In this document: positions 4,316-35,514 of the stretch, in pieces
How positions within the stretch are numbered: position 1 is the stretch's first letter
Layout of the letters: every line of letters starts with the position of its first letter
From: a virus
IMG/VR virus record: IMGVR_UViG_3300021600_000014
Span: 1 to 35,514 of that record
Length of the DNA stretch: 35,514 nt
Reading direction: 5' to 3' (one strand)
Made by a program: the position numbers and the translations under genes
The notes under the pieces: generated by a model
Told to the model about the DNA's origin: nothing
What the model saw: only the letters and a program-made list of their open reading frames with translations
Databases searched by the model: none

Positions 4316-4593
4316 GTATCAAAAGAAGTTTTGTAAAAAACAGCCAAATAATGGCTTAAATAAAGCATAATAAATAAAAAAAGTATTTGGCATATTATAC
4401 CATAAATTGCCACGTTTCCCCTTGAGTTCGCCTCGAGTTCGGATTGTGGACAAAAAATCACCTTCAAACCGGTGGAATGAAAGTGAATTTTTGCGTGGTA
4501 AAATGAAAGTTTATTGATATTGGTCGGTAGTATGTGACCAGTGGCCGGGATGGGGTGTTTGATAGTTACCTCATCCTGTGGCCACGTCAATAG

Positions 4594-4616
4594 AAAAAGG
4601 CGTCCACTTGAACGCC
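4594..4616 (-). terminator. Intrinsic terminator of the late operon
   Basis: On the minus strand GGCGTTC, loop AAGT, GGACGCC gives a 7-bp stem (one G-U pair) with a tetraloop, followed at once by TTTTT (4598-4594). It lies 42 bp after the holin stop and before the early promoter, separating late from early transcription. Confidence 0.8.
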
Positions 4617-4657
4617 AATTTTATGATTGTATGCGTGTGTCGCCTTTTTCTTGCCTT

Positions 4658-4850: not shown

Positions 4851-5345
4851 TTAAAACTTGTGAATTAGCGGATAAAGATTGCGTCCCGGGCAAGCAGTCG
4901 GAGCCAATCGCACATCGCGGTGACCTTTCACACTTGCAGCAACAACTTTCGGTAGATCCGGGCGTTGGCTTGTAAGATAAACCAAAAGCGCCTGCAAAGA
5001 TTTGATTTGCGCTGGCGTTGGTTGCTGAGTTTCCATATTGCCATCCAACTTGATCGCAAGGCTTCGGATATTCACGTCGTAATTTCCAGCGTGGTAGCAA
5101 ATCTCTTTTTCATTTACACACTGATAAACATCCCCGACGTTATCAATAGAATAATGGTATGATAGATGCCCCCAATTATCTGCAATGTGCGTGTTTGCTT
5201 CTGAAATCAAACGCTTCAAAGTATTGTAAGAGGTCGGACGAATGACTGCGTCGTGGTGAATTACCACGGTGTCAATGTTTTTAAAATTCATTTTTCCATT
5301 GCTTTTTTTGAATGGAAGTTTTGCTGTGATGTCAATAATTTTCAT
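4851..5345 (-). CDS. N-acetylmuramoyl-L-alanine amidase (Amidase_2), endolysin
   Basis: 164 aa, a single Amidase_2/PGRP-type domain. Visible signatures are VVIHHDA (zinc ligand H30 or H31), LSYHYSID (61-68), ICYHAGNYD (82-90), GHRDV (141-145, zinc ligand H142) and TACPG (150-154, zinc ligand C152). These zinc amidases cut the bond between N-acetylmuramic acid and L-alanine in peptidoglycan. No signal peptide and no cell-wall-binding domain are present, so export should depend on the adjacent holin. The ATG overlaps the preceding small gene's TGA (ATGA). Confidence 0.93.
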   Translation of the reverse strand: MKIIDITAKLPFKKSNGKMNFKNIDTVVIHHDAVIRPTSYNTLKRLISEANTHIADNWGHLSYHYSIDNVGDVYQCVNEKEICYHAGNYDVNIRSLAIKLDGNMETQQPTPAQIKSLQALLVYLTSQRPDLPKVVAASVKGHRDVRLAPTACPGRNLYPLIHKF

Positions 5346-5467
5346 CTTGTTTTTTTATTACTGTTTAATTGCTCGCTTAATTTTTCTGCTATGGTTTTGT
5401 GCCTTTCAATTTTCACACTTGCCGCCGCTTTGACGCCTAGCGATAGAAAAATGATGCCTGCCACCAT
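5342..5467 (-). CDS. Small bitopic membrane protein before endolysin (possible holin/spanin-like)
   Basis: 41 aa from ATG 5467 (MVAGIIFLSLGVKAAASVKI) to a TGA overlapping the amidase ATG. The same frame continues upstream without a stop for seven codons back to an ATT, adding KFNRTIIIV, which would complete a transmembrane helix with a basic N-terminus; a non-ATG start is therefore possible. The C-terminal 25 residues are a charged helix. One membrane helix plus a charged helix directly upstream of the endolysin suggests a lysis accessory, but the function is inferred only from position. Confidence 0.5.
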   Translation of the reverse strand: MVAGIIFLSLGVKAAASVKIERHKTIAEKLSEQLNSNKKTR

Positions 5468-5517
5468 TACAATGATAATTGTGCGGTTAAATTTACTCGT
5501 ATTTTTATTATTAATTA

Positions 5518-5838
5518 TTAAACGATTTCACTCTCCACAATGATCTGGAAAGTTGGAACCGTGATGACTTCTCCACTTGAAAATGTCACTTGCAACTCGG
5601 CGATATAAATACCGTCCGCAGCAAACGTCCCGTTTTGAACGTTATACTTGCAAATACCATTAGCAGCATCAGCAACAGTTGCAGCCAACACAGTGGCGGC
5701 ATCGGTGCTATTTGCCAGCTTCAAATTTAGACTGATCGCGTTTGCGACTGTCAAATCAAGTGCGGTGTTGTCGTAATTCACCACCTCGAAAAACAGATCG
5801 TAACCGTGGTCGTTTTGCTTCACTACTAATTGCTCCAT
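5518..5838 (-). CDS. Baseplate/fibre protein with BppU N-terminal-like domain, 106 aa
   Basis: Residues 12-100 form an all-beta, Ig-like pattern: YDLFFEVVNYDNTALDLT, then strands around NAISLNLKL, DGIYIAELQVTF and TVPTFQIIV. This resembles the N-terminal domain of lactococcal phage upper baseplate protein BppU (PF10651), which attaches receptor-binding proteins to the tail tip. Here the domain is the whole protein. It lies at the distal end of the tail module just before the lysis genes. Domain assignment is by pattern recognition. Confidence 0.6.
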   Translation of the reverse strand: MEQLVVKQNDHGYDLFFEVVNYDNTALDLTVANAISLNLKLANSTDAATVLAATVADAANGICKYNVQNGTFAADGIYIAELQVTFSSGEVITVPTFQIIVESEIV

Positions 5839-5900: not shown

Positions 5901-7499
5901 CTATCTTTGTAATATGCAATCAAAGAATTCCTGTCCGGTCTGTCTTATTAAATATAGGAATCCGAGTTTTGTCGATCCGTCAATGAATGTTCCTGTGGCC
6001 AATTTTCCACCTGCAACCGCTGTAGACTGAGCATAACGAATATAGCACCACGGTTCAAGCACACGATTCAGCATGTCGAAGCGGTATATGCGCTGCGATC
6101 CCATGTTGATATACATATACTTGCCTCCATTGGTTGCTGCATCTTGCGCGCTTGAGCATCCAGTTGTAAAAGTGATCGATTGGTTATTTCCATATGTCAC
6201 GGCTGCGCTCCATGTTCCATTTGATCCAGCAGCAATATCGAGGTAATAAAGCGTAGTTGTAGCAGCTCCCCTGAACCACATAATGTGAGAATTTCTCGCA
6301 TTTTTGGCAGCGTCCGGAGTGATTGGAAAACAACTCTCAGCCATACATCCAGCGCCCATTGCAGCCGGTGGGTTAGCATATTGAACCATAGCGCCACCAG
6401 CAATGGCGGCAGTTGACCATGCAGCATCAGCAGCGAATCCACCAGCTAAGTATGAGTAAGTCACTGCAGCGGCATTTGTCCAAAGTAGCAAGTCGTTGTT
6501 ATTTTCAACCACGAATTTTGCAGTGGCAGATGGTGTCACAGCCCAAGCAGCGACTGTGAAAACTGCGGTAGCACCACCAGTGTGAGATGTGATCTTGCGA
6601 CGTTGTCCAACTGCTGTCGGATTGGTCGTATCTTCAACGATTCTGACTTGATAGTTTGAAAATTCATTGGCAAGCAATCCTGCAGGCATTCCTGATCCAG
6701 TTATTGATCCAGCAGCAGCGGCAGTTGCAACGATACATTTCAAAAGTCCGCCATTATAGGTTGCTCCTCCCAAAATCATACCTTCTCCCGGATTAGAAGT
6801 ATTTGGCACATATTGTTCATCAAGTGCAACTGCAGAAAAATCAGTACCAATCGTAGCGGCAAGGTTTGTCACTGAAAGGTTTCCTGAAATTGACTGCGTG
6901 GCAATATCAAATGCTTTGAAATATCCAGCAGCAGTTGTTCCTGATCCAAGAATATAAATGCGCCCAGATAAAACCTCATAGGTGTCGGTAATTGTTGGCA
7001 CAAATGAAAGCGGTGTGTCGAAAGTAACAACCGGCGTAGTTCCGGCAGTATTTGCAACGATTGTGCGCTCCTCAATTTTTCCTGAAGTTTTTCCAATGAT
7101 ACGAATGCGATATCCCGATCCATCTCCAGCGTTTGCAAGCTGATTGATTCCAACGCTTGATGCATTTGGAAGTGCAGCCAATGTAATTCCGGTGTTTGCA
7201 GGCGATGCGCCAACTGTTCCAGCTGGTCCGTGGGAAGGCACAAACATAACTCCTGAGCCTGCTCCAATTGCTCCACCAACAGCGGTGAATGCTGCGGTAG
7301 TAATCCAATCATCAGCAGCTTTCAAATATTTTTCAAAAGCAGTAAGTGCAGTGAGATGCCAAAGGTTTGGCTCTTTATTTCCAGTGTTTCGTAAATCAAA
7401 AGCTAAGCATTTGCCAGCCGTTGATGTTGTTGGAGCAATAGAAAGCGGTCTAAACTCTGGCTTGTCTATTAAATCCTTGAATGCTAATACTGTGGTCAT
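5901..7499 (-). CDS. Large tail/host-recognition protein, 532 aa
   Basis: The family is not firmly recognised. The protein is rich in Ala, Gly, Thr and Ser with regularly spaced short strands and turns (RIYILGSG, GMILGGATYNGG, TTTLYYLDIAAG, KYMYINMGSQRIYRFDM), a composition typical of beta-rich tail fibres or propeller-like receptor-binding proteins. There is no signal peptide. It lies among tail fibre and baseplate genes after the tape measure, so a distal structural or receptor-binding role is likely. The conserved-looking C-terminus (LGFLYLIRQTGQEFFDCILQR) may be an assembly element. Confidence 0.65.
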   Translation of the reverse strand: MTTVLAFKDLIDKPEFRPLSIAPTTSTAGKCLAFDLRNTGNKEPNLWHLTALTAFEKYLKAADDWITTAAFTAVGGAIGAGSGVMFVPSHGPAGTVGASPANTGITLAALPNASSVGINQLANAGDGSGYRIRIIGKTSGKIEERTIVANTAGTTPVVTFDTPLSFVPTITDTYEVLSGRIYILGSGTTAAGYFKAFDIATQSISGNLSVTNLAATIGTDFSAVALDEQYVPNTSNPGEGMILGGATYNGGLLKCIVATAAAAGSITGSGMPAGLLANEFSNYQVRIVEDTTNPTAVGQRRKITSHTGGATAVFTVAAWAVTPSATAKFVVENNNDLLLWTNAAAVTYSYLAGGFAADAAWSTAAIAGGAMVQYANPPAAMGAGCMAESCFPITPDAAKNARNSHIMWFRGAATTTLYYLDIAAGSNGTWSAAVTYGNNQSITFTTGCSSAQDAATNGGKYMYINMGSQRIYRFDMLNRVLEPWCYIRYAQSTAVAGGKLATGTFIDGSTKLGFLYLIRQTGQEFFDCILQR

Positions 7500-7755: not shown

Positions 7756-8037
7756 TTAACTTATACGATTACGAATTGTACCAGCCCAAGCACTGCGATC
7801 CTGTGAAGTCAAAAGTGACTGTTTAAGATCGAACCCTGACATTTGTGACATCGACGTAACTGTTCCAACGGTTGTGATTGTTCCAGCAGTAATTGATGCA
7901 ACCGTATTGACGTTGATTTTTCCTGTTGCTGGATCAAGCCAAATTGGTCTCATAATTGCATTTAGAATTGATTTCAACGCTACGTTGATATCTTTGATTT
8001 GTAGTTGTCCTATAACCATAATTATATTATTAGCCAA
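7756..8037 (-). CDS. Tail-associated protein, 93 aa
   Basis: It has a helical N-terminal part (IKDINVALKSILNAIMRPIW), then a segment typical of phage fibre-associated proteins, with short repeated TAGTITTVGTVTS strands (about residues 50-63), and a polar C-terminus. The start overlaps the end of the 459-aa fibre gene by 16 bp. A role as a fibre tip, adaptor or chaperone is plausible but not proven. Confidence 0.6.
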   Translation of the reverse strand: MANNIIMVIGQLQIKDINVALKSILNAIMRPIWLDPATGKINVNTVASITAGTITTVGTVTSMSQMSGFDLKQSLLTSQDRSAWAGTIRNRIS

Positions 8038-9401
8038 TTAGAATTATCACTAATGATTGTGATTGCATCATACTGAGAGCTTAACACTTGAGTGGTATCT
8101 CCGTCTATTGTTTGAGTTCCAAAAGCATCAATAACTGTGACGTTTGATGATGAGCAACGCTTTTTGATTGTGAATTTGCAAGTGTTACCAACGGCCGTCG
8201 GCAAATTGATACTGATTTGTCCCAAACTGCAATCAGTGATAATGATGCGTTCTCCTGAAGTATCTGCTGGGCTTGAATCAGTGGTAACGCTCGAAACATT
8301 GTATGCTCCACCTCCACCACCAACAATCACAATATCTCCACTTCCCAAAACAGATGCTCCGTTGATTGTTTTGATATTGGTGCCTGATACAAGTACGGCC
8401 TGATACAGCGTATCAAAATACGTTTTCAATATTGCCTTCAAATTCCCAACCGTGAAACGAATCAGCGAAAAACCTCCGGCACTGTCTTGGCCGGTTATTT
8501 CGTCGGCATCCACTAGCGCAGGTTTGGATGCGGCAGCGTGGTGCAACGTTGCAATTCTTGCGCCAGTTTCATCGCCGCTGTTTGTGCCGCTCTGATTTCC
8601 GAGTTTTGTGCGCTCAGCCTCAAGCATGTAGCGCTTGTCGTTGCTGTCGGCCACATTTGCCGTTGTGAGCACTACAGCGCCCTGCTGGCCATTCACTGAT
8701 GACACTTTGTCAGAATTGTCCACCCTTTCCCAAGCAGATCCATTATAAATGATCCAGTCACCAGCCAAATATGCGATTGTGGCAATCGTTCCGGGCACAC
8801 TGATCACATAATAGTCCCCTTGGTTGGTTCCACCGGGCACAGTTGGCGCAATTCCAGTACTGGCATCGTATGTGCCGTGATAATTCACCGATCCAATCAA
8901 AGTATCGGGAATGTTTGCCAAAAGGAGCTTCTGATTTGCATCCAGCGCAGCGTAGCCATTCACAGCGCCCTTTTTGCTGGCATCCTCGGGTGTGAACCCA
9001 AGTGCAGCCTGTTTTGCGTTCCAAGCGGCTTTTTCGACGTCTGTGGATAACCTGTGCGTAGTGTCATCCGACATTTGTGCCAAAGTGGTCGGAATTGTTG
9101 GCTTATTGTTTAAATGATTATAGTCAAAAGCATCGCCATTTTTTCCGGTCGGATCATACACGGCCTTGGTCATATCTCCGGATCCGCCGTTTCCCTGCCC
9201 ACCATTAGCGATAAGTTGCCAATGCGCAGTGTCGCTTGTTGGATTTCCTAAGGTATTACCGGTAGCAACAAAAGACGAACCATTGTCCGTCACCAAATCA
9301 TCCACAGCATAAGTGGTTGCTAAACTGAAAACTCCGCGCAAATTAAAACCGCTCTCCGGAATGACGACTATAGTGCTTGATTTTAGCTTAATTCTTCGCA
9401 T
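8022..9401 (-). CDS. Tail fibre protein with carbohydrate-binding-like N-terminal module, 459 aa
   Basis: After a short beta start, residues about 18-66 (TYAVDDLVTDNGSSFVATGN ... HWQLIAN) match the pattern of chitin-binding CBM5/12-like modules (a V/N-G-x-x-F/Y strand and a terminal Trp). Next come fibre-type repeats: HLNNKPTIPTTLAQMSDDTTH, a second module around DWIIYNGSAWERVD, and VSSVNGQQGAVVLTTANVAD followed by DSNDKRYML, a shaft repeat common in phage tail fibres. The C-terminal third is Gly-rich then beta-rich, probably the receptor-binding tip. It lies between tail accessory genes and probably recognises host surface glycans. Confidence 0.8.
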   Translation of the reverse strand: MRRIKLKSSTIVVIPESGFNLRGVFSLATTYAVDDLVTDNGSSFVATGNTLGNPTSDTAHWQLIANGGQGNGGSGDMTKAVYDPTGKNGDAFDYNHLNNKPTIPTTLAQMSDDTTHRLSTDVEKAAWNAKQAALGFTPEDASKKGAVNGYAALDANQKLLLANIPDTLIGSVNYHGTYDASTGIAPTVPGGTNQGDYYVISVPGTIATIAYLAGDWIIYNGSAWERVDNSDKVSSVNGQQGAVVLTTANVADSNDKRYMLEAERTKLGNQSGTNSGDETGARIATLHHAAASKPALVDADEITGQDSAGGFSLIRFTVGNLKAILKTYFDTLYQAVLVSGTNIKTINGASVLGSGDIVIVGGGGGAYNVSSVTTDSSPADTSGERIIITDCSLGQISINLPTAVGNTCKFTIKKRCSSSNVTVIDAFGTQTIDGDTTQVLSSQYDAITIISDNSNWLII

Positions 9402-9405
9402 AATT

Positions 9406-9525
9406 TTATATTTCGGTTAGTTTCAAAGTTACTTTTTTATTTGGCAACTTCAGTCGCAAAAGTGTCTGCCTTATTTTCAGAATCACTGTGTTGTTATTCA
9501 ATTTTATTCTTAAATCTATAATCAT
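9406..9525 (-). CDS. Small basic protein, 39 aa
   Basis: ATG 9525 to TAA 9406, beginning MIIDLRIKLNNNTVILKIRQ. It is rich in Leu, Ile and Lys with an alternating pattern suggesting a single beta-sheet. The A/T-rich leader and the stop only 4 bp before the tail fibre ATG match the packing of the tail module. Too short to classify. Confidence 0.5.
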   Translation of the reverse strand: MIIDLRIKLNNNTVILKIRQTLLRLKLPNKKVTLKLTEI

Positions 9526-9604
9526 AAAATTTTTGGTGAGCCTTTTCGGGAGTTGGCTCAAACTCGTTATACCATCGTGATGGCGATGATACCTTCGTGA
9601 TCAT
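9494..9604 (-). CDS. Possible small protein, 36 aa
   Basis: ATG 9604 to TAA 9494, beginning MITKVSSPSRWYNEFEPTPE. It overlaps the 39-aa gene by 32 bp in another frame and lies 20 bp after the stop of the Cys-containing gene. There is no Shine-Dalgarno motif, and a small hairpin lies directly before it. Weakly supported; it may be non-coding spacer. Confidence 0.3.
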   Translation of the reverse strand: MITKVSSPSRWYNEFEPTPEKAHQKFYDYRFKNKIE

Positions 9605-9605
9605 A

Positions 9606-9621
9606 CGGACGGATGAGTCCG
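9606..9621. other. Small GC-rich hairpin
   Basis: CGGAC (9606-9610) pairs with GTCCG (9617-9621) around a 6-nt loop. On the plus strand it is followed by ATTTTAG, so it could be a weak plus-strand terminator; on the minus strand it only separates the Cys-rich cassette from the next frame. Confidence 0.35.
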
Positions 9622-9624
9622 ATT

Positions 9625-9804
9625 TTAGGGTTTAATTGCGCAGACATTTGTCGGCGCTTGATCCAGTGGCAGCAAGCGGTAACATTCACCTGCCGCACCC
9701 GGACACTGCTTGCAAACCCAACGGTTATAAAGTTTGTCGCCTACTGTTTTCAAAGCTACTGCAACGAATTTCGGATTTTTCGGTGTGTTAATGGTTGTTT
9801 TCAT
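9625..9804 (-). CDS. Cys-containing small protein, second gene of SD-driven cassette, 59 aa
   Basis: The start is ATG 9804 (MKTTINTPKNPKF), not the in-frame TTG at 9822, because a textbook AGGAGA lies 7 bases upstream of the ATG and the ATG overlaps the preceding TGA (ATGA). The protein contains WVCKQCPGAAGECYRL (about residues 29-44), a CxxC-x6-C set that could bind a metal. No family recognised. With its partner at 9801-9980 it forms a two-gene unit whose strong ribosome-binding sites contrast with the rest of the genome. Confidence 0.65.
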   Translation of the reverse strand: MKTTINTPKNPKFVAVALKTVGDKLYNRWVCKQCPGAAGECYRLLPLDQAPTNVCAIKP

Positions 9805-9980
9805 CGCCTGTTCTCCTTGCAATGGTAGATTGGAATGGTTACGAAGTCCAAATTGTCACCCCAAGGGCAAAATTTGAAATCGCAACGGACACAGTAGTCA
9901 GCAACCCCGTTCTGAATGCAACCAGCGCGGCACTTCCTATGCCTCTTGCACAACTTGTCGTTGCAAATCGCGATTAGCAT
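9801..9980 (-). CDS. Cysteine-rich small protein, first gene of SD-driven cassette, 59 aa
   Basis: ATG 9980 to TGA 9801, with a near-perfect GGGAGGT six bases before the ATG. Eight cysteines lie at about residues 6, 11, 17, 21, 30, 33, 38 and 54; the spacing (CxxC at 30-33, others four to six apart) suggests a double zinc-binding fold or a disulfide-rich peptide. The N-terminal part is Lys/Arg-rich (KLCKRHRKCRAGC). No signal peptide, so metal binding in the cytoplasm is more likely than disulfides. No family recognised. It sits between membrane-protein genes and tail fibre genes, where phages often carry late-acquired cargo. Confidence 0.65.
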   Translation of the reverse strand: MLIAICNDKLCKRHRKCRAGCIQNGVADYCVRCDFKFCPWGDNLDFVTIPIYHCKENRR

Positions 9981-10004
9981 CGGAGCACCTCCCTAGCCTT
10001 TGTT

Positions 10005-10316
10005 TTAGTTGTTTATTTCTAAAATTGTCAAAATTCGTGTTTGAACCTCACTCATTCTGCGCATTTCCATTTCAATATGTTTGATGTCATTTTCTTTGAT
10101 AAGTAAAAGTGAACTGTTGATGATTTTGATGGCGTCCTTTGTTTCTTTAAAAATCTCATCAATCCGAGAATGGCGGATCGTGCAATTACTTGACATTATG
10201 TTGATTTTGTCTGTCGCTTTCTCTGCTGGACGAGAAAGGAAAATATACCCACCGATTAGCATAGCCAGCAGTTGCCCCACTGAAAGTGCTATCAAAATAT
10301 ATTCGTATGTTTGCAT
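10005..10316 (-). CDS. Bitopic membrane protein with coiled coil, 103 aa
   Basis: An N-terminal membrane helix at about residues 6-28 (YILIALSVGQLLAMLIGGYIF) is followed by a basic patch and a long helical, heptad-like region (about 45-103). The topology, one membrane helix plus an extended coiled coil, resembles inner-membrane spanins or tail-associated membrane proteins, but no diagnostic motif is present. It lies in a block of accessory genes between collar-domain fibres and the large tail fibre. Confidence 0.65.
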   Translation of the reverse strand: MQTYEYILIALSVGQLLAMLIGGYIFLSRPAEKATDKINIMSSNCTIRHSRIDEIFKETKDAIKIINSSLLLIKENDIKHIEMEMRRMSEVQTRILTILEINN

Positions 10317-10329
10317 TTTATTAGATATT

Positions 10330-10686
10330 TTATTTTATTATAGCGTCTTGTTCTGATTCGCACGGTTCTAAACAATCCTCGCAGTGGTTGGTAGTAGGCC
10401 ACCTGAAGATTTTATAAAAAACTTTGTCCACAAAACGTTCTAAAATAGTACCTTGATAATTGCGTCCCAGCCGTGACGAAATAGTTTCGTCTTCACTTCC
10501 ACCAAATACAGTGTTTAAAAGTTGATCAAACGCTTTCCAATTATTGCTGATGTAGCGCTTAATCTCTATGTCGCTAATTATAGCATAAATTGGCAGCGTC
10601 GTAAATAGCAAAATAAAGAATATAACAACGTTAATTGGCACGATGATGCTGAATATTAAAATGAAAATTGGGATGTATTTTTTCAT
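10330..10686 (-). CDS. Membrane protein with conserved C-terminal Cys motif, 118 aa
   Basis: Residues 4-37 are hydrophobic, probably two closely spaced membrane helices around IFILIFSIIVPINVVIFFIL. The soluble part contains FDQLLNTVFGGSEDETISSR and ends with HCEDCLEPCE (about 101-110), a probable metal site. I recall similar LDQLLNxxxGGxxDETxSSR segments from other phage membrane proteins of unknown role near lysis or tail genes. It lies 13 bp upstream of the coiled-coil membrane protein. Function not known. Confidence 0.7.
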   Translation of the reverse strand: MKKYIPIFILIFSIIVPINVVIFFILLFTTLPIYAIISDIEIKRYISNNWKAFDQLLNTVFGGSEDETISSRLGRNYQGTILERFVDKVFYKIFRWPTTNHCEDCLEPCESEQDAIIK

Positions 10687-20474: not shown

Positions 20475-20490
20475 TAACCCCGGAGGGTTA
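20475..20490 (-). other. Short hairpin with UCCG tetraloop after the major capsid gene
   Basis: On the minus strand TAACCC, loop TCCG, GGGTTA forms a perfect 6-bp stem with a C-G-closed UNCG tetraloop (20490-20475). There is no U-tract after it, so it is not a classical terminator; RNA stabilisation or processing between head genes is possible. Confidence 0.5.
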
Positions 20491-20566
20491 CCGCTGGTGC
20501 GCGTATCGGTTAGACAGCGCAACCAAGCGGCAAATATATGAACATACTCCAAAAATCCCGTAAGGA

Positions 20567-21718
20567 TCAAGAAGCAGATGTTTTTAATGCAACGAATGCG
20601 GTAGGTAGAGCAACAGCCATAGCAATACGCTCAGTTACACGCACGGCTGACATATTGCTTTCAAACATATTTGTTGATGCAATAGTAGCCTCTTCGGTTG
20701 TCTTCAGTGTCATTTGTTGGCGATCACCGCAGAACAAATACTTCAGATTTCCAAAGATCACATACTTGGTTGAAAGTGCAGTCGAAGACGGCATTTTTTC
20801 AGACAAGTACACAGGATATCCCCAAACGTATCCAACGATTCCAACACCAGCAGTTGCATCCTTTGAGATGATAGGATTTGCAAGCGATGCAATGTACTGT
20901 CCGTCAGTTCCTTTCAAAGTTTGAACGGTTGACCATATTGTACGATGCATAACGAATACAGCTCCTTGCAATGCCAATGGTTTAAGAGAACCAATCATGG
21001 AACGTAGGTAGTCTCCAGTGATTTTTGCAAACGTAGTGTCACCAGTTGCCTGAGTAACAACGTTTACACCAGAGTCAATCATAACTCCGGTAAATGGAGA
21101 ACCAGAACCCATAAGTCCTTGATTGTCTTCTTCACCTGCGATTGCTTCTGCAAACAGCTCAACCAAATAACCAATCGTGTCAATGTTTGCGTCAGCAAGC
21201 AATTCGTTGGTCAATGGGGTAATTCCAACCATCGTCTTGGCAGTCAAAACGATTTGAGCAAGTGTAGGCTGACTAGCAGTTCCAGCTACACCTTCACCTG
21301 GCCATGAAACAGAAACAGACGCTGTCACCTTAGGCAGTCTCAACACGTCGCGCTGCATTGGAATCCAACGAGCCAACTGTCTAATCAAACCAAAGTTTTC
21401 AGCCAAACGAGTAACTTCGCTTGAGAATTCATCAGGAACGAAGAATCCACCAGCGGTAGTTGTACCCTCAGTCATAGCTTTTTGACTACCAAGGGCAGTT
21501 GCCATTGCTTCGTCACCACGACCGATAGCTTGCAAGAATTTGACAACGCGGTCATTTCCTTCAAGTTTTTTTGCTTCCTCAACACCTCCGAAAATTTTCT
21601 TTTCAAGGCTCAAACCTTTTTCTTGCAGTTTAGTGTCAACGAGTTTTGAAGTTTCCTCCATAACTGACGTTGCAATAGACTTTGAAAGTTCTGCAAGTTG
21701 TTCTTGTGTAATTTCCAT
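20567..21718 (-). CDS. Major capsid protein, HK97 fold, 383 aa
   Basis: The start at 21718 (MEITQEQLAELSKS) is preferred over an in-frame ATG at 21751 because the latter lies inside the protease gene. About residues 1-90 form a helical, coiled-coil delta domain of the type removed by the prohead protease. The HK97 capsid core follows: TTTAGGFFVPDEFSSEVTRL, VLRLPKVTASVSVSWPGEG, KTMVGITPLTNELLADANID and VFVMHRTIWSTVQTLKG. The presence of a separate protease gene directly upstream supports cleavage, probably near residues 85-95. It forms the icosahedral shell. Confidence 0.93.
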   Translation of the reverse strand: MEITQEQLAELSKSIATSVMEETSKLVDTKLQEKGLSLEKKIFGGVEEAKKLEGNDRVVKFLQAIGRGDEAMATALGSQKAMTEGTTTAGGFFVPDEFSSEVTRLAENFGLIRQLARWIPMQRDVLRLPKVTASVSVSWPGEGVAGTASQPTLAQIVLTAKTMVGITPLTNELLADANIDTIGYLVELFAEAIAGEEDNQGLMGSGSPFTGVMIDSGVNVVTQATGDTTFAKITGDYLRSMIGSLKPLALQGAVFVMHRTIWSTVQTLKGTDGQYIASLANPIISKDATAGVGIVGYVWGYPVYLSEKMPSSTALSTKYVIFGNLKYLFCGDRQQMTLKTTEEATIASTNMFESNMSAVRVTERIAMAVALPTAFVALKTSAS

Positions 21719-29612: not shown

Positions 29613-29840
29613 CTATTTGATTTTAATTTTATTAGCGATCGCGATTGCTTTTCTTCTTGCGTGACGATTTCCTTTCAAAAACATAGTCTGCAAAGTCATT
29701 GGTTTTTCTGCCTCCTTTGTCGCACTTGGCAGATACTCGCTTTTTGCATAGGAACTCAAATCAATACCGGCTTCCTCAGCCTTATCGTAAAGCTGCGCCG
29801 GCAATATTGTGATATTTTTGTGATCTTCTGTTTCAATCAT
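29613..29840 (-). CDS. Hypothetical protein, 75 aa
   Basis: N-terminus MIETEDHKNITILPAQLYDK, middle with DLSSYAKSEYLPSATKEAEK, basic C-terminal helix NRHARRKAIAIANKIKIK. The basic helix could bind nucleic acid. The start overlaps the previous gene's TGA (ATGA) and the stop lies just before the next ATG, so translation is coupled along this small-gene block. No family recognised. Confidence 0.65.
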   Translation of the reverse strand: MIETEDHKNITILPAQLYDKAEEAGIDLSSYAKSEYLPSATKEAEKPMTLQTMFLKGNRHARRKAIAIANKIKIK

Positions 29841-29926
29841 TGTTTTTTGTCATCCGCCCGGAGTATGATCCAAAACGCTACTGCCATAATAATATAACCA
29901 ATAGCGTCTTGGATGAAATACTTCAT
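29837..29926 (-). CDS. Single-helix membrane peptide, 29 aa
   Basis: A short frame from ATG 29926 (MKYFIQDAIGYIIMAVAFWI) to a TGA overlapping the next ATG. The residues from about 4 to 23 form one membrane helix, followed by LRADDKKQ. Coupled (ATGA) to the 75-aa gene. Very short, so confidence is limited, but length, topology and spacing fit the neighbouring genes. Confidence 0.5.
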   Translation of the reverse strand: MKYFIQDAIGYIIMAVAFWIILRADDKKQ

Positions 29927-29934
29927 GACTTTGT

Positions 29935-30213
29935 TTATTTTTTAACCCTCATTGATTCAAGCTTGTCATTAAGCGCGATCATCTTCGGATTTTTTCTAAC
30001 GCGTTTTTCATAGATGTGGGCATAGATTGTTTTGATGCAAGCCTCAGCTTCCTCAATCTTCATCCCATTAATCATCACTTTTATATCCGCGTCTTTCTTT
30101 TTTTTGTTGTAAAAAACAGTGAGCAACATCAATCCGTGCTCTTTGCTATTGTTGTTTAGCTCGTTTTCCTTTATGATCTTGCAAACTTTTTCGTGCAGGT
30201 CTTTGTTTTTCAT
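29935..30213 (-). CDS. First gene of late operon, helical protein, 92 aa
   Basis: The start at 30213 (MKNKDLHEKVCKIIKENELN) is chosen over an upstream ATG at 30264 because the promoter -10 lies at 30241-30236, so transcripts would begin only about 15-20 nt before 30213. Helical, Lys-rich, with a strand LMLLTVFYNKKKKDADIKVM. Unknown family; the first gene after a strong late promoter could be a regulator, but no HTH is evident. Confidence 0.7.
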   Translation of the reverse strand: MKNKDLHEKVCKIIKENELNNNSKEHGLMLLTVFYNKKKKDADIKVMINGMKIEEAEACIKTIYAHIYEKRVRKNPKMIALNDKLESMRVKK

Positions 30214-34737: not shown

Positions 34738-35457
34738 CTACAGTAGAAAATCGTCTGGCATTTCTTCTTCTGCTGGTTTTGCAGCTGGAGATATTGCACC
34801 TGCAAAATGATTGTTGCCAAATGGCACATCTTCTTTTGTTAGCGGTGCTGGTGCTTGTTGCGTTTCCGGTTCTTTTTCTTCAAACAGCTCCCGGTATTCT
34901 TTGGATTGCTGAATTTTTTCCACGATCCAGTTCGGCAAATAAAATGCATCAATATTTGCAAAATCCTCAGTGCTGACCATTATTGGCTTGCGATAAACTG
35001 GAAAATCCAATAGCGCTTTTTTGAAATCCAATGGCTCAACTCCGACGATGTTCTGATAAACTTGTCCCTTGCTTTCAACGCCATCCAAGATGATCGCGCA
35101 TTCCTTTCCAAGAAAAGATGAAATGTCAAACTTCTCCAATTCCTCCTCGGTGTATTCAGCAGATCCGTGCATACCGTCGATTATTTCCCTAAGTCCCACG
35201 GTTCCATTTTTTGATGGGTTCAGTGAAAGGAAATAAGTGCCGCTTTTAATATTTGAAACGGTCTCACCGTTTTGGTTTTCATAGGTCAATGATGGAAGTT
35301 CAAATCCTAAAAGAATTTGCGGTGAAAACCAAGGCTTCGGTGTGTTTTTTCCAAACTCCTGCGATCCAAGCTGAATGATTTGGAAAAGACGTGCTGGATA
35401 GTGTCCATTTGGAATTGAATATTCAGGTTTAGTCATTCCTGCGTAAATTGGTGCCAT
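34738..35457 (-). CDS. Putative ssDNA-binding protein, 239 aa
   Basis: It starts MAPIYAGMTKPEYSIPNGHY, then PARLFQIIQLGSQEFGKNTP, a pattern seen in phage proteins often annotated as SSB-like or recombination-associated, in which the ARxxQIIxLGxQ strand starts an OB-like fold. The C-terminus is disordered and acidic, ending EEEMPDDFLL, similar to the acidic tip of bacterial SSB that recruits partners. It lies in the operon with the Sak4-like ATPase and before the helicase. The ATG is at 35457; the codon 8 polymorphism is described at the left-end copy. Assignment is by pattern and context. Confidence 0.65.
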   Translation of the reverse strand: MAPIYAGMTKPEYSIPNGHYPARLFQIIQLGSQEFGKNTPKPWFSPQILLGFELPSLTYENQNGETVSNIKSGTYFLSLNPSKNGTVGLREIIDGMHGSAEYTEEELEKFDISSFLGKECAIILDGVESKGQVYQNIVGVEPLDFKKALLDFPVYRKPIMVSTEDFANIDAFYLPNWIVEKIQQSKEYRELFEEKEPETQQAPAPLTKEDVPFGNNHFAGAISPAAKPAEEEMPDDFLL

Positions 35458-35514
35458 AATTTTTTGTAATTTTAAATTTTTTAATTATTCTTTTTTACCC
35501 CAACCTCTTAAAGT
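35308..35514. repeat. Right copy of 207-bp terminal direct repeat
   Basis: Identical to bases 1-207 except C at 35434 (T at 127). Joining the ends gives a circular map of 35,307 bp. The mismatch argues against a purely computational k-mer overlap and suggests true within-population variation or a base-call error. Confidence 0.95.

Follow-up and report, generated by a model that had tools for sequence, protein, structure and literature searches.

Prophage "morons" are accessory genes in late operons. The unit described here resembles them in being accessory, in being unlike its late-operon neighbors and in recurring in otherwise dissimilar phages, but around it no promoter or terminator was clearly recognized. 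A second parallel is the rpsU (bS21) mRNA of Flavobacteriales and other Bacteroidota, which carries a strong Shine-Dalgarno (SD) sequence amid general SD avoidance (PMC9976891). Our cassette shares that pattern; however, rpsU encodes an autoregulating ribosomal protein, whereas P1, the first protein of the cassette, is not S21-like, is phage-borne and stands in a row of SD-led genes whose energies are mostly weaker. The bS21 family (PF01165) was absent from all five of the records analyzed. In freshwater Bacteroidetes phages that encode bS21, the phage protein is thought to bias translation to phage mRNA late in infection (PMC9723584). Those phages encode a ribosomal protein; in ours, the searches detected no S21, and what is unusual is confined to the mRNA signal. 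Com of phage Mu, a small zinc-finger phage protein controlling phage mRNA translation (PMC6483171), is a working model for what P1 could do. However, comparison of the cassette proteins with Pfam and PHROGs gave no credible family match, and no mom-like partner was identified. Literature searches on cysteine-rich proteins, Shine-Dalgarno and lysis cassettes, and on SD in Bacteroidetes phages, CPR and Patescibacteria, returned nothing alike among titles and abstract openings.

The cassette lies in a 35,514-base virus record (IMG/VR record IMGVR_UViG_3300021600_000014), referred to below, in its full length, as the window. The window is probably a near-complete tailed-phage genome, because it has a 207-bp direct repeat at its ends (positions 1 to 207 and 35308 to 35514; 99.5% identity), although the record is classed as linear. 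Pfam matches included a major capsid protein, a portal, an amidase endolysin and a DNA methylase, and a terminase was matched in PHROGs. The two 59-amino-acid (aa) genes that the original prediction had placed in this region are both present on the minus strand. P1 (9801 to 9980) has the eight cysteines that had been ascribed to one of the proteins, and gene 2 (9625 to 9804) has four. The P1 stop overlaps the gene 2 start in the predicted ATGA (9801 to 9804, minus strand), and the strong SD sequences, named beforehand as GGGAGGT and AGGAGA, are likewise there. That of P1 (GGGAGGT, 9987 to 9993, minus strand) has an energy of -15.4 kcal/mol, with 7 nucleotides (nt) from GGGAGG to the ATG, and that of gene 2 (AAGGAGA, 9812 to 9818, minus strand) has an energy of -8.5 kcal/mol, with 8 nt from AAGGAG to the ATG. 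The gene 2 SD sits in the final P1 codons, TGC AAG GAG AAC AGG CGA TGA. In the P1 leader, GGAG of the SD (9992 to 9989) can pair with CTCC (9985 to 9982) to form a small predicted hairpin. The proposed location between tail genes was right for one side only: the downstream gene (8022 to 9401) is tail-fibre-like, but upstream are two small genes (10005 to 10316 and 10330 to 10686) whose products resemble membrane proteins on inspection and gave no informative Pfam match.

At least three further IMG/VR phages carry P1, all with a strong SD. A protein search of IMG/VR gave a relative with 78% identity in L002 (record G001), a cysteine-pattern DNA search gave one among 15 stretches in L013 (record G002), and a looser cysteine pattern gave one in L129 (record G004), among at least 120 matching stretches listed. 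These searches used protein similarity or cysteine patterns, and the SD was part of neither pattern. All three relatives start behind a strong SD, with energies of -15.1 (G001), -8.7 (G002) and -13.0 (G004) kcal/mol. In an alignment of the four members, all eight cysteines are invariant in four of four phages, and 18 positions are invariant overall. The original prediction had called for a homologue search and would have been undercut by a lack of homologues and random variation among relatives; homologues were found, and their variation is not random. Record G001 is a distant relative of the window, and P1 is by far the most conserved protein between them, the next among proteins of at least 100 aa standing at 45.6% identity. 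Records G002 and G004 have almost nothing else in common with the window: at an E value of 1e-4, no coding-strand protein but P1 is common to the window and G002, and G004, besides P1 (46%), has the amidase (51.5%) in common with the window and a tail protein that matches weakly over 53 aa. P1 is present, as a moron would be, in at least four records of otherwise dissimilar phages, with late-gene placement. A profile scan of viral contigs yielded no further relatives. When bacterial and archaeal genome contigs were scanned with a three-member alignment, 68 stretches matched the pattern and none was confirmed, and phage and plasmid records held no relative at a meaningful E value.

P1 is followed by a varying set of predicted small genes, one to three in number, SD-led and mostly with cysteines. 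One such gene follows in G001 (51 aa) and three follow in G002 (103, 98 and 80 aa); two were counted in G004 (19 and 58 aa), a count that omits an 8-codon open reading frame (ORF) between them. The later genes of these three records encode four to nine cysteines each, except for the 19-aa gene, which has none. In a comparison of the 11 cassette proteins only, the last G004 gene resembled the second G001 gene (E value, 0.002), and gene 2 of the window was weakly like the last G004 gene (38% over 26 aa; E value, 0.009); searches found no homologue of gene 2. The ATGA overlap behind P1 occurs in three of the four phages (the window, G002 and G004), and in these the gene 2 SD lies within the 3' end of P1, as AAG GAG in the window and G002 and as AGG AGG in G004. 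Because AGG AGG replaces AAG GAG in G004, the SD is kept there while the residues change from KE to RR. In G001 gene 2 is not overlapped, and the end of P1 has no SD; a separate SD follows. Since there is a strong SD on every member, often in the end of the preceding gene, the cassettes look like translationally coupled mini-operons. Record G001 also has, outside the cassette and on the coding strand (position 439), a hydrophobic ORF of 66 aa whose ATG is preceded by AAGGAG at a distance of 7 nt; it may be a further SD-led small gene.

SD energy was calculated as pairing with a generic 16S tail, applied to every start used; SD use in the host is presumed. Starts of the other genes were assigned to the earliest ATG within the first quarter of each non-overlapping ORF of at least 80 aa, and some of these starts may be wrong. 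ORFs without such an ATG and those too near the end of a piece were excluded from scoring, and the region 43 to 60 nt upstream of starts was used as a mock. In the window, 3 of the 42 other genes scored reached -7 kcal/mol (median, -0.55), against 7/42 in the mock region. Over the four P1-bearing records, 7/142 other genes were at or below -7 kcal/mol, compared with 15/142 in the mock region, and because SDs are rarer at starts than in the mock region, they are if anything avoided elsewhere in these phages. The cassette genes of the four records were all SD-led (11/11; -8.2 to -15.4 kcal/mol). That count is inflated, because the later cassette genes in G001, G002 and G004 were chosen partly for having SDs; the P1 result alone is free of that bias. 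The early observation that nearly all other genes have no SD was borne out, and the equal SD use by other genes that would have spoken against it did not occur (7/142 versus 11/11). The cassette is an island of strong SDs in genomes that otherwise mostly lack them, as in the case of rpsU.

The P1 family had no credible match in Pfam, PHROGs, NCBIfam, PADLOC or the PDB, where the G004 member was searched in PHROGs and, within the profile, in the PDB. P1 itself had no Pfam match above the cut-off, and both structure models were poor (mean pLDDT, 47.5 and 48.7). The cysteine spacing of Mu Com differs from that of P1. Judged by its sequences, this is an unrecognized, new protein family found in phages that otherwise have little resemblance to one another. 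The novelty of the locus is this unrecognized family together with conserved SD use that is confined to one unit in SD-avoiding phages.

The cassettes are preceded by small genes with a membrane-protein look by eye, and tail or endolysin genes are near. In G001 the small membrane-type gene ahead of the cassette is a holin (Pfam PF05105), and in G002 and G004 an amidase endolysin lies a little beyond the cassette. Near the lysis genes there is also a small membrane ORF that is spanin-like by eye (5342 to 5540 of the window, minus strand; L002:8423-8605; L013:3623-3895; L129:9731-9949). It apparently has no ATG, GTG or TTG start for its conserved KNICTK-like N terminus, and in the window copy the only ATG comes later; it may start at a noncanonical codon, such as ATT or ATA. 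In L129 an integration site is suggested, because a tRNA-Thr (TGT; L129:11159-11231) lies between the endolysin and a tyrosine recombinase.

Between the window and G001, P1 has a pN of 0.18 and a pS of 0.79, a value at which synonymous sites are saturated. Because they are saturated and nonsynonymous differences are few, P1 appears to be a gene long maintained by selection, not one inserted recently from a foreign source. The sequence ahead of the P1 start, GGAGGTGC, is identical in the window and G001 despite this saturation. The idea of a foreign unit thus survives in part: the unit is distinct from its surroundings, and P1 recurs with its SD in phages sharing little else. As a recent arrival it fares badly, since the SD was kept through that divergence, and neither a close homologue outside such phages, in the contigs and records scanned, nor little synonymous divergence was found.

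We lean modestly toward the view that the cassette is an old accessory unit of otherwise SD-less phages, encoding SD-led, probably zinc-binding microproteins that have their own translation route and act late. P1 heads a row of SD-led small genes near lysis or tail genes. To judge from their cysteines, the products may be intracellular microproteins that bind a metal, probably zinc, and they might act on host RNA, the ribosome or RNA polymerase late in infection. The SD would give the cassette a start route apart from the A-rich, SD-less starts of the remaining genome. This arrangement suggests that the cassette genes follow a mode of activation of their own during infection, and special expression of the cassette is plausible from the sequences compared. 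If the SDs are functional, these SD-avoiding genomes keep selective SD use for a defined gene set, and the cassette offers a natural probe of when the anti-SD becomes available in SD-poor bacteria.

It is unlikely, though conceivable, that the SD is instead a plain strong booster, present because large amounts of protein are needed or because an A-rich start context is impossible at this place. The P1 leader in the window, with just two A's in 15 bases and a C at -3, is consistent with this, as is the start of gene 2 at the coding end of P1 in three of four phages, where the leader is constrained. However, in the window no SD precedes the first ATG of the major capsid gene, for which high expression is expected, and the leaders of other overlapping window genes remain A-rich.

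We consider it doubtful that the SD serves to gate timing in a host that hides its anti-SD, as Bacteroidota do via bS21, bS18 and bS6. The cassette would then be translated chiefly on the minority of ribosomes whose anti-SD is exposed, such as those without bS21, giving a late or stress-timed switch. Flavobacterium ribosomes without bS21 translate strong-SD mRNAs better, and the rpsU SD is exceptional there (PMC9976891). SDs are rarer at starts than in the mock region here, as has been reported for Flavobacteriales. The P1 energies, which reach the -15.4 kcal/mol of the window copy, also point this way, but the SDs of most cassette genes, at -8 to -13, fall short of the strength seen for rpsU (-14 to -21), and none of the five records has a phage S21 gene. 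A Bacteroidota host is likewise unsupported. The Bacteroidota-type promoter motif TAnnTTTG was not in excess over shuffles in any of the five sequences, with 24 occurrences in the window versus 15.7 in shuffles (shuffle maximum, 26), 4 versus 3.6 in one G001 piece and 9 versus 8.9 in one G004 piece. Absconditabacteria, Wolfebacteria and Campbellbacteria belong to CPR. These three groups and Bacteroidota are among the organisms named as SD-scarce (PMC10783764), and promoter motifs do not settle whether the host belongs to Bacteroidota or Patescibacteria. Matches of the terminase, capsid, endolysin and tail fibre to phage records pointed to many unrelated hosts. The tail protein at 5901 to 7499 of the window has 37 to 42.5% identity to proteins of the Synechococcus phages S-CRM01, MinM1 and B23, and cyanophages gave the best tail-fibre matches. 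For a window tail protein, two scans found one relative in a viral record without P1 (L018) and none among genome contigs. A further step, in which the SD acts as an intrinsic timer or ribosome-state sensor instead of an ordinary start signal and dedicated microproteins are read by separate ribosomes with exposed anti-SD in SD-blind bacteria, strikes us as slightly more doubtful again.

Recent acquisition of the gene pair from an SD-using organism is disfavored and very improbable: the GC3 of P1 (0.644) is the highest of the 50 window genes examined, above its relatives in G001 (0.51) and G002 (0.49), but the P1 homologues sit in other SD-poor phages with their SDs kept and synonymous sites saturated, and the scan of genome contigs and the phage and plasmid records gave no confirmed relative.

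Predicted RNA folds carry no weight in this argument, because such structures occur elsewhere too. Compared with shuffles, the fold before P1 had z scores of -2.4 in G001, -2.8 in G002 and -5.3 in G004, and in the window it was not stronger (-0.25). After the cassette the fold was stronger than shuffles in four of four phages (G001, -3.1; G002, -7.4; G004, -2.9; window, -3.9). In the window this is a structured, apparently noncoding stretch (9515 to 9624, minus strand; z score of -3.86 for 9515 to 9630). No intrinsic terminator was matched directly after the cassette, where RNA hairpins follow in all four, and scans for sigma-70 promoters were at chance level except in L002 (8 versus 3.2). Directly ahead of the P1 SD in L129 (L129:9103-9255) is a structured RNA in which a 21-bp stem closes approximately 110 to 120 nt (z score, -5.3). 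At gathering scores, Rfam families searched in five sources returned a tRNA in L129 only, and a search of the L129 cassette region at permissive scores returned one weak match, to rli49, on the minus strand (19.7 bits, with a cut-off of 40; E value, 0.67). Similar structures elsewhere in the records make it less likely that the flanking hairpins are peculiar to the cassette; in the window, 21 of 885 stretches fell below a z score of -3.5. Very strong structure (z score below -4.5) was predicted at 4515 to 4634, 20475 to 20594 and 29795 to 29954 of the window, partly in intergenic sequence.
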